Assembly: GCF_000221185.1 (NCBI RefSeq)
Contig: NC_015865.1
Coordinates: 1,674,001-1,738,000, forward strand
Length of the DNA: 64,000 nt
Reading direction: 5' to 3'
From: Thermococcus sp. 4557
Lineage (GTDB): Archaea > Methanobacteriota_B > Thermococci > Thermococcales > Thermococcaceae
Numbering within the stretch: position 1 is the first letter of the stretch; each line of letters begins with the position of its first letter. Both the position numbers and the translations under genes were made by a program. The notes below the pieces were generated by a model, which did no database searches, was not told the DNA's origin, and saw only the letters and a list, made by a program, of their open reading frames with translations. Shown here one piece after another: positions 40,762 through 47,539 of the stretch.

Positions 40762-41334
40762 TTGGTCGACATGAGCAATGTAAAGCTCAGGATTGAAAAC
40801 ATCGTCGCTTCTGTGGACTTATTCACCCAGCTCAACCTTGAGAAGGTTATTGAAATCTGCCCCAACTCCAAGTACAACCCCGAGGAGTTCCCCGGCATAA
40901 TCTGCCGCTTCGAGGAGCCCAAGGTTGCTCTTCTGATATTCAGCTCAGGTAAGCTCGTCGTCACCGGCGCAAAGAGCGTCGAGGACATAGAGCGCGCCGT
41001 CAACAAGCTCATCCAGATGCTCAAGAAGATAGGCGCCAAGTTCGCCCGCGCCCCGCAGATAGATATCCAGAACATGGTCTTCAGCGGCGACATAGGCATG
41101 GAGTTCAACCTCGATGCCGTCGCTCTGAGCCTGCCGAACTGTGAGTACGAACCCGAGCAGTTCCCCGGCGTTATCTACCGCGTTAAGGAGCCGAGGGCTG
41201 TGATACTGCTCTTCTCTTCGGGCAAAATCGTCTGCTCCGGAGCGAAGAGTGAGCACGACGCCTGGGAAGCCGTTAGAAAGCTCCTCCGCGAGCTGGAGAA
41301 GTACGGTCTCATCGAGGAAGAGGAGGAGTGGTGA
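40762..41334 (+). CDS. tbp: TATA-box-binding protein
   Basis: 190 residues with two direct repeats of the saddle: [20 protein letters not shown]...[19 protein letters not shown]...[16 protein letters not shown], then [15 protein letters not shown]...[17 protein letters not shown]...[15 protein letters not shown]. The acidic EEEEEW tail is archaeal. The start is TTG 40762 (MVDMSN), the spacing after GGAGGTG being right and the N-terminus matching the Pyrococcus protein. The stop overlaps the deacetylase start. Confidence 0.98.
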
Positions 41335-42269
41335 AGGCTTTGGCCTTCTCCGTTATCTATTCTCCCGTTTTTCTGGAGCACAAACCGGAGAACTACCATC
41401 CCGAAAACCCTGAAAGGCTGCTGAGGGCCGTCAAGGCTCTCCAGCGGCTGGACCTCTGGAAGCCGGTCGAACCGGTTCCCGTTCCCGGGGAGGAGCTTCT
41501 GAAAGTTCATTCAAAGGAATACGTTGAGCTCGTGAGGGAACGGAGTAAGGGCTTCTCATACCTCGACCCCGATACCTACGTCTCCCCTGGCACGTGGGAA
41601 GCGGCTTTGAGGGCCTTTGGCGCTGCTAAAAAGGCGGTAGAACTAGCGCTCAATGAGAAAGGACTTTACCTGGCACTCGTCAGGCCGCCGGGCCATCACG
41701 CTGGGAAATCTGGAAGGGCTTTCAACGCCTCGACTTTGGGCTTCTGCATCTTCAACAACGCCGCATACGCCGCGAAGGTTGCGGAGGATCTGGTTGGGAA
41801 GGTTTTGGTCATAGACTTCGACGCCCACCACGGCAACGGGACGCAGGAGATACTCTGGGACGATGGGGAAGCCGTTCACATAGACCTGCACGAGCGTGAG
41901 GTCTTTCCCTGGAGCGGCTACGAGCACGAGGTTGGTGGCAAAGGTGCTGAGGGGACGAAAATCAACCTGCCGATGCCCCACTATGCGGGAGACGATGACT
42001 TCATCTACGCCTGGAACGAAGTCGTCCTGCCGGTTCTTGCCCAGTTCAGGCCGAAGCTCGTGATTATCTCGGCGGGCTTCGACGGCTTCCTCGGCGAGAA
42101 CCTGACTACTCTTCGCCTTAGCGAACTCTTCTTCGCCTACGCCGGCTCTACACTATCGCGCTACCCGCTCGCGGTGATTTTCGAGGGTGGCTACTCCGTC
42201 GGCCTCGACCGGGGTTTGCCCGCCTTCATCAGGGGTACCTCAGCGGTGAAATCCGTGAGGTTCCTGTGA
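41328..42269 (+). CDS. Histone deacetylase-superfamily amidohydrolase (class II/AcuC-like), C-terminus frameshifted
   Basis: 313 residues as read. All HDAC motifs are there: RPPGHHAG (His pair), [13 protein letters not shown] (zinc Asp and His), SAGFDG (second zinc Asp), and EGGYS (transition-state Tyr). Archaeal members deacetylate proteins or polyamines. The end looks shifted: an in-phase alternative frame from about 42242 continues [16 protein letters not shown] to a TAG at 42340, a natural-looking tail that one extra base near 42240 would join. Starts GTG 41328, GTG 41331 or TTG 41340 are all possible, overlapping the TBP stop. Confidence 0.85.
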
Positions 42270-42340
42270 GTCCGTCCTACGAGGCCCTCAGAACAGTCGC
42301 GCGGGTGAAGGAGATAGGGTCTGAGTGGTGGGAGCTGTAG
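42266..42340 (+). pseudogene. Detached C-terminal tail of the deacetylase
   Basis: Read in the other frame, this stretch encodes [18 protein letters not shown] and SEWWEL, ending at TAG 42340. It has Thermococcus-like codons and a sensible helical sequence but no start of its own; it reads best as the lost end of the preceding gene. The first 16-bp palindrome begins at the very next base. Confidence 0.55.
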
Positions 42341-42375
42341 CTTACCCGGGGGTAAGGAACTTACCCGGGGGTAAG
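42341..42375. repeat. Two tandem copies of a 16-bp palindrome
   Basis: CTTACCCGGGGGTAAG occurs at 42341-42356 and again at 42360-42375, separated by GAA. The second copy encodes the last residues and stop codon of the minus-strand ATPase gene. The same unit recurs at its 5' side. Confidence 0.9.
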
Positions 42376-43467
42376 TTGGAGGCCCTTAATGACCTCCTCA
42401 ACAACCGGGTCGGGAATGACGTACCCATCGGCGCTTTTATCCAGGTAGCCGTACTTCACCAGGTTCTTCAGGAGACTGGAGAACTTTGAGTCGTTTATCC
42501 TGCCCACTTTGAACTCCAGATACTCCTTTATATCGCTCCACCTTTCGTTGCCCATTGCAACGGCCTTAAGTATGAGCCCGTATCGCTTGCTGTGTGAAAG
42601 CAGGGAGGAAAGTTCATCCAATACCAGAGCCTGTGCTCTGTGGAACAGCTCATTCAAGGCATCCCTTTCCGGGAGCTTTCGGATTCCCCTGAGGTAGCCG
42701 TACATGCTCAGCCAGCCCACGATTCCGTCAAGTTTATCAACGGCTCGTTCGAGCTCCGAAGGGCTTATATTGATTCCAAGCTCTTTGAAACCCGTCTCCA
42801 GGAACTCGATGCTCCGTTCCCGGCTGAATCTCTCCAGCGTTATTTCCCTGGCGTACCTGCCGAAAAGCGGTTTCTTTGGATTATCAAGGCCAAGGAAGTC
42901 GTGGAGCATTCCAACCTCCGAACCCGTTAGAACGAAGGTTAAGTTTGGAAGGTTATCAACGGCATACGCTATCAGCCCATCGTACTGTATGCCGGAGAGC
43001 CGGAGATACTGGGCTTCGTCAAACGCTATGATAACCCGTTTTCCTTCACTCTCCGCCCAGGAGTCTACCTTTTCAAGGATTTCAGCTAGGTCGGGCTTCT
43101 TCTCGAACTCCACGTGAACTCCCGAGAGACGAATTCCCCGGATTGATGAAATTGCCTCCGTCATGCCGAGCCTGAGCTTTCCACTTGGGGGAAGGGATCC
43201 GATGAGCGAACTCAGGATTCTTTTCGCGAGGATTTCCTGCGGAATGGAACCGTGAGTGAAGTACAGGGAGCGAACGTCTATTTTGGCGTAAGGATAGCTT
43301 GATTCTGAGAGGGCCACGTTGAGGAGGGAGCTCTTTCCAAGACGTCGTATGCCCAGGATGAGAACCAGCCTCTCTTTGAGCTTCAAGGCCTCGTTAAACG
43401 CCTCAAGTTCTCTTTCTCTATCGTACAGGTCCTCTTTCCTTGTTTTAGGTTGAAGGTCGAACAGCAA
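42361..43467 (-). CDS. Archaeal AAA/STAND-type ATPase
   Basis: 368 residues from TTG 43467 (MLFDLQPKTRKEDLYDRE, the usual start of this family). Walker A appears as LGIRRLGKSSLL near residue 44, Walker B as VIIAFDEAQYL near 150, and FVLTGSEVGML as sensor region; a winged-helix-like C-terminus follows (YGLILKAVAMGNERWSDI, YGYLDKSADGYVIPDP). These archaeal ATPases are common, often mobile, and of unknown function. GGTGGGG is the Shine-Dalgarno. Palindromes flank both ends. It lies downstream of the McrB-like gene, with 59 nt between them when the TTG start is used. Confidence 0.85.
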   Translation of the reverse strand: MLFDLQPKTRKEDLYDRERELEAFNEALKLKERLVLILGIRRLGKSSLLNVALSESSYPYAKIDVRSLYFTHGSIPQEILAKRILSSLIGSLPPSGKLRLGMTEAISSIRGIRLSGVHVEFEKKPDLAEILEKVDSWAESEGKRVIIAFDEAQYLRLSGIQYDGLIAYAVDNLPNLTFVLTGSEVGMLHDFLGLDNPKKPLFGRYAREITLERFSRERSIEFLETGFKELGINISPSELERAVDKLDGIVGWLSMYGYLRGIRKLPERDALNELFHRAQALVLDELSSLLSHSKRYGLILKAVAMGNERWSDIKEYLEFKVGRINDSKFSSLLKNLVKYGYLDKSADGYVIPDPVVEEVIKGLQLTPG

Positions 43468-43502
43468 CTTACCCCACCGTAAGTTACTTACCCGGGGGTA
43501 AG
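43468..43502. repeat. 5' copies of the 16-bp palindrome at the ATPase promoter
   Basis: A diverged copy, CTTACCCCACCGTAAG (43468-43483), and a perfect copy, CTTACCCGGGGGTAAG (43487-43502), lie directly before the TTG start, the latter touching the TATA-like CTTATAACTT on the minus strand. The placement fits an autoregulatory operator, and the flanking of the gene also recalls an inserted unit. Confidence 0.85.
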
Positions 43503-43526
43503 TTATAAGGGTTTTGGAAAAAAGAA

Positions 43527-45806
43527 TCAACTGAAGCTCGCGAAGCCTATCTCGTAGAGCTGGCGAAGCATGCGAAGGGCTTTTTTAGCCGTGTGCTTGA
43601 AGCGGAAGTTCTCCTTTTGGGTTTCCCAGTTTTTGAGGAGGTCCATAACCTCCTCTCTCCTGAGCTCCCGGACGTCAATTCCTGCGTTCTCTGAGAGACA
43701 CAGCCCCAAAACGGCCTTTAGTGGTTCTTCGAGCTTCTTTCTGTTCCCGTGGAACTTGGGAAGAACCTTCATGAGAAGTGCAAGGTCGAAGATTTCGTCG
43801 TCACTCTCAAACTCGACGATTCCGTTTTCCCAACTCTCCCTGGCGCTCTGGACAAACAGTGCAATCTCATCAACGACGCGGTAGCCGAAGTGCATGTCGT
43901 ATGGCTCGAGGGCTTTGTTCAGTTCAGTGAGAATCCTCCAGTACTCCCTGTTTTTAGCGTCCCTTAGCTCCTTAACCGCTTCGTTTATCCCCTCTTTCGA
44001 ACGCGCGAGGAACTGGCCGCTCTTACCGCGGAGGTCTTCCAGTATTGAGGCCCTTAGAGCTTCAACGGCTTCGTTGGGCAGTCTACTTTCCCCGCTCTCC
44101 GGTGGGTATCCCTCAAGCTCGACATCGTGGAACTCTATTGTGAAAGCCCTGTCGAGAACCTTTGGGCTGAACGAGTAAGTGGTCTCGTCCATGTTCACCG
44201 TCCCGATGATGTAAAGGTTGGGCGGGAGGAAGAGTTCCTTGGGGATGCCCTCTTCTTCAATCTCATCAACGTCGTGGAGCCTCAGGGGCTCCCTTGTGAA
44301 TCCGTCCTCGTCTCTTCCGCTCTCGAGAACGCTGAGGAAGTCGGCGAAGTAGTACTCAACGTGGGCGAGGTTCATCTCATCGAGGATTACGAAATATGGG
44401 GTAGCATTGCCCCTGTTGTTTTCATAGTCTTTGATGGCTCTCATGATGAACTTCAGGAGGCTGGTTTTGTGGTATCCTCCCGTCAGGGGATTGTAGTAGC
44501 CGAGCAGTGGTTTGGAATCACGCCAATCAGGGCGGACCGAGAGGAACAGGAAGTTTTCCTTTGAATGATCCAGAAGCTCCGCCAGCTCCTGAACGATCTT
44601 TGTTTTACCTGTGCCCGTGAGGCCGGAGAGTATTATGAAGCCCTTGGTTTTGAGGGCGGTGTAGAACTGGGAGACGAGATGGAGTGGGTAGAGGTAGCCT
44701 CTTTTGACAAGATACCTGGTGAGGATCGATTCATGTTTATGCTCCTCATTGGGGTGGCGTTGTGAAGTACTTGTAATCATACGATTTCCCACCTCCCCTA
44801 ACATCTCAAGAAGTTTCCCTGTCGTGTCAGGATCCAACAGGTTACTAAACATAGGTCTGGAATACCATTCGCCGTTCTCTTTAATGAGGGCATCTAACCC
44901 AGTAATGCCTTCGGTGGGAATGGGTTTCAGAAGAAAAACCTTTCTATATCTTCCAGTTTTGCCCCAATACTTGAAGTCAAATTCGTTACAGATAACTGAC
45001 CATGAAGAAGCGTACAGACTCAATAATTTTTTCTCTTTTCTAATTCCAAAGAGAACGATGTCACCAATGCTGGGGACTTTTTCATCAACTTTTCTTCCCC
45101 AAGCTCTCGTGAATCCTGCATTATAGAGCTCCGGTCCCTTGTCTCCAAAACACTCTTTGATGACGTTTATGTCCACTTCTTGGTTCACGGTTTGTCTGTA
45201 ATTCTTTGAGGGTTGTGATTTAAATGTCTGTATGAATATCTTCCTGTCCTTGAGCCACCAGCCAAAATGGTCAGCTTCTAGAAGAGTTACCTTTTTCCCA
45301 CAAATTTGAAACATAATGTTCCTAAGCAATTCCAATCTCTTCAATACCTCTGAGTATCTCTTTGGTTGTCCCCAGCCAAATAACTCAAAGTACCAATTTG
45401 TTGTGTTGTTCCAAGGAGCAAAGTATTTCGGGTAATAAAAGGCTAAGGCTTCTGTCAATGACCCTTTCCCTAGTCCCTCAATTCCTTCTTGCCATGTTTC
45501 TAAAATTTTGTCAATGTCCTTTCTAATGTCCTCGGGTGATGTTGAAATGAGAATTGATACAAACTTCTCCATGATTACATCTAGTCTTTCTTTGTTTCGA
45601 AGGTGAAATCTCTGGAGATTTCTGCCAGAATACAAAAGACTAAATGCCTTCTTAAGCAGGTTATAGTCTTTATTTCTCGCTGCCTGTTCTATCAATTCTT
45701 TAAATTCTCTTGGACTGTTATTCAGCCAGCCTAAATTTTCTTTGTCAATGTCGAGATGCAGACAGTATAATCTTATCAAACCCCTAAGAGTTTTTTCGTT
45801 AATCAT
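43527..45806 (-). CDS. McrB-like AAA+ protein with large N-terminal region
   Basis: 759 residues. The C-terminal half is an McrB-type AAA+ domain: Walker A SGLTGTGKTK near residue 396, Walker B FVILDEMNLAHVEYYF near 480, and the McrB hallmark GTVNMDETTYSFSPKVLDRAF near 540. The N-terminal ~340 residues have an alpha-helical part (1-200) and then a possible EVE/YTH-like ligand-binding domain (SIGDIVLFGIRKEKKLLSLYASS...YRKVFLLKP), as reported for another Thermococcus McrB that binds N6-methyladenine. The N-terminal coding region is AT-rich. The ATG overlaps the nuclease stop (ATGA). Confidence 0.88.
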   Translation of the reverse strand: MINEKTLRGLIRLYCLHLDIDKENLGWLNNSPREFKELIEQAARNKDYNLLKKAFSLLYSGRNLQRFHLRNKERLDVIMEKFVSILISTSPEDIRKDIDKILETWQEGIEGLGKGSLTEALAFYYPKYFAPWNNTTNWYFELFGWGQPKRYSEVLKRLELLRNIMFQICGKKVTLLEADHFGWWLKDRKIFIQTFKSQPSKNYRQTVNQEVDINVIKECFGDKGPELYNAGFTRAWGRKVDEKVPSIGDIVLFGIRKEKKLLSLYASSWSVICNEFDFKYWGKTGRYRKVFLLKPIPTEGITGLDALIKENGEWYSRPMFSNLLDPDTTGKLLEMLGEVGNRMITSTSQRHPNEEHKHESILTRYLVKRGYLYPLHLVSQFYTALKTKGFIILSGLTGTGKTKIVQELAELLDHSKENFLFLSVRPDWRDSKPLLGYYNPLTGGYHKTSLLKFIMRAIKDYENNRGNATPYFVILDEMNLAHVEYYFADFLSVLESGRDEDGFTREPLRLHDVDEIEEEGIPKELFLPPNLYIIGTVNMDETTYSFSPKVLDRAFTIEFHDVELEGYPPESGESRLPNEAVEALRASILEDLRGKSGQFLARSKEGINEAVKELRDAKNREYWRILTELNKALEPYDMHFGYRVVDEIALFVQSARESWENGIVEFESDDEIFDLALLMKVLPKFHGNRKKLEEPLKAVLGLCLSENAGIDVRELRREEVMDLLKNWETQKENFRFKHTAKKALRMLRQLYEIGFASFS

Positions 45807-47539
45807 TGTACCACCTCCGGAATAAAACTCAAGTATCCAACTCCTTTCATCTTTAACAGCTCATCAAGACTAAACGCATGGGAAGATACGTGAAAGCTAA
45901 AAAATGGATATAATTTAAATCTAAAATCTTTTTTGTCATTTTTTCTTAATCTATGCTCAATCATGGTGAAAAGCCCACTAATTGTTCCAATATCCGCAAA
46001 GCCATTTCTACGGTGTTTAGATTCCTCAAAAAACACACTCTTCCTTCCAGGATACAGCACCACCGCAAACCTGCATCCCTTCAAGGCGTCCCGGTATGTG
46101 TGCATCTTGTAGATGTCCTCCAGCTTTGCCCACGTTTCGTATCTCCCGGTTTTCTCGGCGTTCTCGTCCAGTTCATCGAAATTTTCAATTTCCATGCTTT
46201 CGTCCACGGCATCAAGCTTGAACTTGGCGTCGAAGACCCCCACGAGCTGTGTGCCTTTGCTACTTGGATTGCCTGTGAAAAGCGAGAAATCTGGCCTGAG
46301 CGTCACCGAGTAGCTCCACTTTCCTGGAGTCAGCCGCTTGTTGTAGTAGAGCCGCCAGCCGTTGTCGAACTGGGCGTAAACGTCCCCCCTTTCTGAGAGT
46401 TCGCCTGCAGGTGTAACGACAATCCTGAGTCTCTTTTCTCCAAGGACCTCACCAAGTTCCTCAACAAGCCTGAAGAAAGCCCAGTACTCGTAAAGCTTCG
46501 CTACGTCCCTGCTGTCTACGGCCCTCTTCACTTCCTCAAAGAACGGAACGTAAGATGTGAACTCCCTGTAAAGCTCAAGCAGGTCGCGGTAGCCGTCGCC
46601 CTTCAAAAGCGTCTGGGAGGTGTACGGGAAGAGCGTCATCTCTCCAATGTCTTCCCAGACCCCGTCGCTTTTAATGAACTCAAGCTCTTTGAGGAGTTCA
46701 TTAACGGGATCAAGTTCTGCCGTGGGGTTGCTTCCAAAGGTCTCAACGACGCGCTCGCTCCATTCAACGAGCATGTTGAGGAAATATTTGACAAATCGAT
46801 TTTCCCGCGTGTCTGTGCTCTCGTACCGCCGGAATCCAATAACCTGTGTCGGGATGTAGCCGTCGAGGTGTTTCCGGAGCAAAACGTCTCCTCCCGCGGG
46901 GGCGAGGTATTCCGGGTGCTGGGCAATGGATAGGAGCGTTTCTGGAGTCACTTCATCGATCTCGTGGGGCCTCAACCATTCCTCCTCCGCCACCAGCTCC
47001 CTCTTCATGCGGTGCTTTACCGTTTCAAAGGCTCCGATGATTCGTTCACCGTTTGTTTGGAGGTAGTGGTAGGCAAAGAGTTCGTTGATGGGTTCATCAC
47101 TCTCAATGACCGTGAAAGCCGTTGGTGATTCCAGCTGGAAAGGCATGCTGACTGAGTACCTTACAACGTCTCCCGTGAGGAGCTCTATAAAGGAGTCCTG
47201 AATCTCCGCGAGCCGTTCTACCCAGTGACCGTCCAAGGACGAGAACCTTTTGGGGTACATCTTTGAGAGCTTGAGGGAGAGGACCTTTGCTGGGCGTTTA
47301 AAACAGATTTCTCCGTTTTTGATTCCCACTACCTCGGTGTCCCCGATAAAATTGCCGATTGACACTAGGAATGACCCGTTCTTCAGCTTTCTTGCCTTTG
47401 CCTTGCCGATAAAGACCTCGTCCGCGTCAATCTTCAGGATGTAACTGATCCATTCAAAGAGGTACCATCTCTCCTCATCCGAAAAAGCCCAGCACGCACT
47501 TTTGGTGGAGGTTATTACATCTCCATCCGCACACCTCAA
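45803..47539 (-). CDS. McrC-like PD-(D/E)XK nuclease (DUF2357 / PDDEXK_7)
   Basis: 578 residues. The N-terminal ~260 residues match the DUF2357 pattern (VERLAEIQDSFIELLTGDVV, FAYHYLQTNGERIIGAFETVK). The C-terminal nuclease domain begins with KLYEYWAFFRLVEELGEVLG and has LRPDFSLFT and VGVFDAKFKLDA, giving the D...DxK metal site. It should form a motor-nuclease complex with the McrB-like partner. Order is nuclease first, unlike E. coli mcrBC. The start is TTG 47539 with GGTG upstream and a TATA-like TTTTTATTAAT at about 47572-47581. Confidence 0.85.
   Translation of the reverse strand: MRCADGDVITSTKSACWAFSDEERWYLFEWISYILKIDADEVFIGKAKARKLKNGSFLVSIGNFIGDTEVVGIKNGEICFKRPAKVLSLKLSKMYPKRFSSLDGHWVERLAEIQDSFIELLTGDVVRYSVSMPFQLESPTAFTVIESDEPINELFAYHYLQTNGERIIGAFETVKHRMKRELVAEEEWLRPHEIDEVTPETLLSIAQHPEYLAPAGGDVLLRKHLDGYIPTQVIGFRRYESTDTRENRFVKYFLNMLVEWSERVVETFGSNPTAELDPVNELLKELEFIKSDGVWEDIGEMTLFPYTSQTLLKGDGYRDLLELYREFTSYVPFFEEVKRAVDSRDVAKLYEYWAFFRLVEELGEVLGEKRLRIVVTPAGELSERGDVYAQFDNGWRLYYNKRLTPGKWSYSVTLRPDFSLFTGNPSSKGTQLVGVFDAKFKLDAVDESMEIENFDELDENAEKTGRYETWAKLEDIYKMHTYRDALKGCRFAVVLYPGRKSVFFEESKHRRNGFADIGTISGLFTMIEHRLRKNDKKDFRFKLYPFFSFHVSSHAFSLDELLKMKGVGYLSFIPEVVQ

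Follow-up and report, generated by a model that had tools for sequence, protein, structure and literature searches.

An archaeal ATPase gene bounded by subfamily-specific palindrome pairs: a putative self-regulated, removable cassette of Thermococcaceae

Introduction

The archaeal ATPase_2 families are large, and their functions are mostly undescribed. The protein family considered here is already known and has solved structures. Two of its members, PABY2304 (2qen) and SSO1545 (2fna), resemble our ATPase over the full length, including the C-terminal winged helix. Searches of the openly accessible literature turned up no account of palindrome pairs specific to subfamilies, of copies at the 3′ end, or of scars consisting of a solo pair.

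Among regulators, a comparable described system is Stf76 of pSSVx, an autoregulated archaeal winged helix-turn-helix (wHTH) repressor with two sites in its own promoter (PMC4027180). Repressors of the Stf76 type share the two own-promoter sites with the ATPase cassette. The cassette, however, encodes an ATPase of 368 aa, and further operator copies lie at the 3′ end of its gene. The Orc1/Cdc6 proteins (1w5t and 2qby), the next structural neighbours after 2qen and 2fna, also combine an AAA+ domain with a winged helix. However, their identity to the ATPase is 12–16%, and the repeats described here form a pair that overlaps the promoter of a dispensable gene; nothing about them points to an origin. 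Long terminal repeat (LTR) elements and solo LTRs are comparable by analogy only: both ends carry direct repeats, and loss leaves one copy in register. Unlike LTRs, the cassette repeats are operator pairs of approximately 37 bp, and the cassette has no transposition gene and occupies one locus.

Results

The window, i.e., the whole stretch of 64,000 nucleotides of Thermococcus sp. 4557 that was analysed, contains an ATPase gene that had been proposed in a preliminary description to be bracketed by four copies of a 16-bp motif, two at each end. The coordinates (Table 1) and dinucleotide shuffles confirmed this arrangement; seven matches with at most three mismatches were observed against 0.61 in the shuffles, and none of the 100 shuffles reached seven. 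Three of the copies had been called perfect palindromes. P1, P3, and P4 are indeed identical to one another, but they are near-palindromes, symmetric at seven of the eight pairs, and P2 is weaker (five of eight). In the 2.01-Mb genome, the three CTTACCCGGGGGTAAG copies are the sole sites with two or fewer mismatches. The motif is therefore confined to the ATPase locus and is not scattered through the genome without the ATPase, which rules out a genome-wide repeat family. The shuffles, the search of this genome, and a pattern search of 94 genomes together exclude chance palindromes.

Table 1. Positions of the features of the ATPase locus in the window
Feature	Position	Strand	Sequence and remarks
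3′ palindrome, outer copy (P4)	42341..42356	.	CTTACCCGGGGGTAAG; abuts the TAG stop codon (42338–42340) of the HDAC-like reading frame, which is convergent
3′ palindrome, inner copy (P3)	42360..42375	.	CTTACCCGGGGGTAAG
ATPase gene	42361..43467	-	368 aa/codons from TTG 43465–43467; stop codon TAA 42361–42363, inside P3
5′ palindrome (P2)	43468..43483	.	CTTACCCCACCGTAAG; in gene sense CTTACGGTGGGGTAAG, conserved across orthologs; immediately precedes the start codon and lies roughly over the expected start of transcription
5′ palindrome (P1)	43487..43502	.	CTTACCCGGGGGTAAG; 19-bp register to P2; downstream of the TATA box and ahead of the expected start of transcription
Promoter	43503..43518	-	TATA box CTTATAA (43503–43509), BRE-like CCAAAACC upstream

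In archaea, transcription is expected to start about 25 nt downstream of the TATA box. At this locus, the box CTTATAA abuts P1 (the copy at 43487), and the 5′ pair fills the stretch from the TATA box to the start codon, so that the proposed overlap with the promoter was verified. The 5′ end reads, in gene sense, CCAAAACC-CTTATAA-CTTACCCCCGGGTAAG-TAA-CTTACGGTGGGGTAAG-TTG. Ortholog conservation places the start at the TTG directly after P2 and not at the upstream TTG 43530. The 3′ end reads CTTACCCCCGGG[TAA]G-TTC-CTTACCCCCGGGTAAG, followed by the stop codon of the convergent HDAC-like frame. The earlier claim that the 3′ pair supplies the stop codon of the ATPase gene holds here, but it does not describe a constant feature (17 of 26 orthologs).

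The HDAC-like (acuC-type) gene (41328–42340) has an apparent 1-nt deletion near 42236 relative to its orthologs (ATCAGGGG-TACCTC versus ortholog ATCAGGGGCTACCTC). Its ORF stops early at 42269, and the homologous frame runs on to the TAG beside the palindrome. On the other side, positions 43527–47539 encode an McrB-like AAA protein (PADLOC PDC-M26A, E = 3e-53) and a DUF2357/PD-(D/E)XK protein. These genes are a candidate McrBC-type restriction pair, and they lie directly upstream of the ATPase gene in the same direction. About 11 of the orthologous ATPases have the McrB-type flank next to them, and others lack it.

The protein belongs to PF01637 (ATPase_2, E = 1.8e-14), and its C-terminal winged helix (residues 292–349) matches PF21100. 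Residues G39, G44-K45, and D150-E151 are invariant, and Walker A and B motifs and an AAA-type core are present. The closest solved structures by sequence are 2qen (E = 1e-67) and 2fna (E = 2e-52), both matched at full length. These two are also the closest folds (TM 0.85 each) to the AlphaFold2 model of the ATPase, which was predicted with a mean pLDDT of 93.8. With regard to a possible place among the STAND NTPases, a DGI[VP]GWL motif is conserved, and structural matches were found with CED-4 (4m9s) and a maltose-system structure (8bob), but the Orc/RuvB matches are as good as these. Profiles of anti-phage defence gave only weak candidate matches (PDC-S27, E = 8e-7; PDC-S01, E = 8e-5). The genome contains 20 PF01637 matches. 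Relatives at E ≤ 1e-10 are encoded in 84 of the 94 Thermococcaceae genomes. The family profile, applied with a cutoff of E ≤ 1e-50, matches 76 genomes, none of them from outside the Thermococcaceae, and one Thermoproteota MAG encodes a relative at 40% identity.

About 110 loci were read, and nearly all of the genes have palindromic sites between the TATA box and the start codon. The usual layout in the 94 Thermococcaceae genomes is a TATA box, two palindromes in a 19-bp register, and the start codon. The Thermoproteota relative has a matching layout, with CTTGTGGTACTACAAG-TAGG-CTTGGGGTGCTACAAG-CA-ATG after the TATA box. The palindrome sequence is constant within a subfamily and different between subfamilies, the motifs being CTTACC (the gene in the window), CTTGCA, GTATCG, GTAAYG, AACTACTG, CTTCTGG, and CCACCAGT. 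In a strict tally of 5′ and 3′ copies, which covered four subfamilies, at least two 5′ copies were present in 26/26 CTTACC, 17/18 CTTGCA, 24/24 GTATCG, and 11/11 GTAAYG genes. The CCACCAGT group has a single 5′ palindrome, and some members lack a clear pair. The operator copy number can be higher: at one locus (L085, genome G063), a 19-bp GTATCGGGGGCGATAC unit is repeated four times in tandem ahead of the ATPase.

Copies at the 3′ end are limited to three subfamilies (22 of the 26 CTTACC genes, 6 of the 18 CTTGCA genes, and several CCACCAGT genes), and their motif is always that of the subfamily itself. The CTTACC 3′ copies are kept as palindromes even at loci whose stop codon lies ahead of them (L040, L043, and L048). 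Another locus of G063 (L195) has three 3′ CTTACC copies.

Operator distance tracks protein distance (r about 0.80), and the operator-protein partial correlation was reached by none of 500 permutations. The wHTH consensus differs by operator class, with class-specific helix residues. Covariation specific to the wHTH was not favoured, since the partial Mantel value with the operator was 0.28 for the wHTH and 0.33 for the ATPase domain, so that the covariation does not single out the wHTH as the recognising part. Because the palindrome is subfamily-specific, self-recognition and autorepression are the best inference, and each ATPase would recognise its palindromes through its own wHTH. The layout is that of an autoregulated repressor, in which the operator overlaps its own promoter and is conserved with the gene. 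The features of autoregulation noted at the outset for this locus are thus supported across the family by the subfamily-specific pairs between the TATA box and the start codon, as far as the sequences indicate.

The pattern CTTACCNNNNGGTAAG matched ATPase loci or orphan sites in the 94 genomes, apart from one apparently chance site (G006), and a reversed-pattern control was near zero. Empty sites lacking the gene, for which the preliminary description had proposed a search, were found in three subfamilies. This result and the restriction of the palindrome to its locus both speak for the preliminary description. In the CTTACC subfamily, ten genomes without the ATPase keep palindromes at the corresponding locus (G016, G023, G041, G070, G051, G043, G062, G019, G036, and, in degenerate form, G058). 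In G016, G023, and G051, the TATA box runs directly into a pair in which the 3′ copy forms the outer half. The clearest losses (L191, L192, and L200) are exact in-register fusions of the 5′ and 3′ copies, with the promoter TATA retained beside the solo pair; the site is present twice at intact loci and once at these three. Alignment of L192 (G023) with the intact L164 (G044) gave colinear flanks of 93% and 91% identity. Their 37-bp overlap coincides exactly with the pair, and about 1.09 kb including the ORF is missing. L191 and L200 show a similar pattern. The orphan sites of G043, G062, G019, and G036 are less clean, and the junctions at L197–L199 and L202 are not cleanly in register. By flank clustering, intact and orphan CTTACC sites are syntenic (TBP – HDAC – [ATPase] – (McrBC) – next gene), and nearly all Thermococcus copies of this subfamily lie at one syntenic locus.

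In the CTTGCA subfamily, nine genomes, among them the one studied here, keep an orphan pair without the gene. The GTATCG subfamily has ten solo pairs, located beside argS in the place that the ORF occupies in relatives. At the GTATCG solo sites, the alignment breaks at the pair end and resumes at the argS stop, and a spacer of 20–70 nt at these sites is absent from intact loci. No 3′ copies are present at intact GTATCG loci, which contradicts the idea that solo pairs need 3′ copies. Therefore, one simple mechanism is insufficient for all losses. In L238, L239, and L240 (G066–G068), the GTATCG solo pair has the opposite orientation with respect to the TATA box, a hint that inverted 3′ copies once existed there. 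More distant genomes contain single or decayed palindromes, pseudogenes, or nothing.

The solo and intact states are interleaved on both the HDAC and argS trees. The solo state needs six changes on the HDAC tree, five of them forced by starred branches, and eight on the argS tree, five of them forced; these counts are approximate, as L195 was scored as having no gene despite an ATPase C-terminus at the contig edge. The upstream DNA diverges at solo sites, while the pairs stay 90% identical. We do not claim selection on the solo pairs because an independent recent origin could explain the identity, and decayed solo pairs exist.

Among GTATCG loci, distances in the gene and in its neighbour have a correlation of only r = 0.575. 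Between genomes G044 and G016, the divergence is 3% in argS and 32% in the ATPase; between G071 and G014, it is 15% in argS and 5% in the ATPase. In the identity profiles, the change lies close to the pair and at the end of the ORF. This uncoupled divergence of gene and flank sequences indicates horizontal exchange of the GTATCG ATPase, and it disfavours a strict loss-only model for this subfamily. In the CTTACC subfamily, the genome studied here (G000) and G044 are 94–98% identical from pair to pair, and the immediate neighbours are unrelated on both sides. Breakpoints at the pairs are suggestive, but the intergenic gaps are short and this is not proof.

Discussion

The reading that we consider reasonably probable is a self-repressing, removable ATPase gene cassette. 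The C-terminal winged helix would bind its own palindromes as adjacent dimers, and the bound dimers would cover the start site and block TBP, TFB, and RNA polymerase. An ATP-dependent conformational change may relieve this autorepression. The 3′ copies may be secondary sites of the same ATPase. As these copies repeat the 5′ ones in direct orientation, end-to-end recombination is possible; by whatever agent, it would remove the gene and leave a solo pair, and this outcome is seen at the empty sites. The GTATCG solo pairs argue against it as the sole route. Either the ancestors of these loci had 3′ copies, or solo and occupied sites may be old alleles swapped by homologous recombination. Horizontal exchange would re-supply the gene to some lineages. 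A self-regulated, removable cassette is thus supported, while active mobility and DNA binding are unproven.

Two alternatives assign a lesser or a different role to the 3′ copies. In a plain autoregulated gene, these copies would be functionless products of chance or duplication, and the losses would be ordinary deletions. Such a gene is rather unlikely. In its favour, nearly all genes have the 5′ pairs, only some clades have 3′ copies, and pseudogenes and ragged losses also occur. However, the retention of the 3′ copies as palindromes in most CTTACC orthologs, even after the stop codon, and their agreement with the subfamily's own operator in three subfamilies argue otherwise. According to the other alternative, the 3′ pair would act as a terminator or roadblock that insulates convergent genes, and bound ATPase would stop read-through from the neighbour; this appears highly improbable. 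The stop codon of the convergent HDAC-like neighbour touches the 3′ pair in the CTTACC subfamily, and Pyrococcus-like orthologs with a co-directional neighbour (L049–L051) have no 3′ copies. Family-wide, 3′ copies do not track the orientation of the downstream gene: a coarse ORF test counted 22 convergent genes with and 40 without them, and 12 co-directional genes with and 36 without. GTATCG loci are mostly convergent, yet they lack 3′ copies.

The preliminary description also suggested a compact mobile unit bearing terminal repeats. This holds only in part: the gene does come and go, and horizontal exchange is real, yet the repeats seem to be chiefly regulatory. The ATPase is the single ORF of the unit, between the HDAC-like and McrBC-like neighbours, and neither a transposase nor an integrase was found in it. 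An insertion sequence or transposon does not agree with the missing transposase, the one palindrome locus in this genome, and the mostly syntenic copies. An integrase element would account for two sites when occupied and one when empty, yet the unit contains no integrase gene. Carriage on plasmids, phages, or viruses was not supported, as no relative matched in the plasmid, phage, and viral-contig collections searched. In a further alternative, the ATPase pairs both ends, and a host recombinase excises and inserts the element at palindrome pairs acting as attachment sites. The pair present twice when intact and once when empty has the architecture of attL/attR versus attB, and the solo pairs in three subfamilies and the uncoupled GTATCG histories would fit. 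We regard such an active element as improbable, because the unit contains no recombinase, has no relatives in the collections, and in Thermococcus stays almost entirely at one locus in the CTTACC subfamily. Moreover, the TATA boxes that accompany solo pairs resemble leftovers of the gene promoter, and decaying solo sites suggest scars, not maintained targets. Little credence is given to a new class of recombinase-free mobile unit, whose ATPase would bridge its own end repeats and promote excision and re-insertion at solo operator pairs; if it were true, the same sites would serve as transcriptional operator and attachment site across Thermococcales.

Returning to the self-repressing cassette, turnover, patchiness, and neighbours suggest that the ATPase probably acts in conflict or in regulation. 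By the exchange data, the GTATCG genes are fast-turnover cassettes, as expected for defence or selfish genes. If each family member recognises an operator pair of its own, sequence would directly reveal which DNA is targeted by dozens of uncharacterised proteins, and their function would become testable. Solo pairs would be a fossil record of gene loss. In the genome studied here, a solo CTTGCA-type pair with no ATPase nearby lies at G000:C1:928071-928107 (L209, 2573–2607), and it is a probable scar of a lost paralog.
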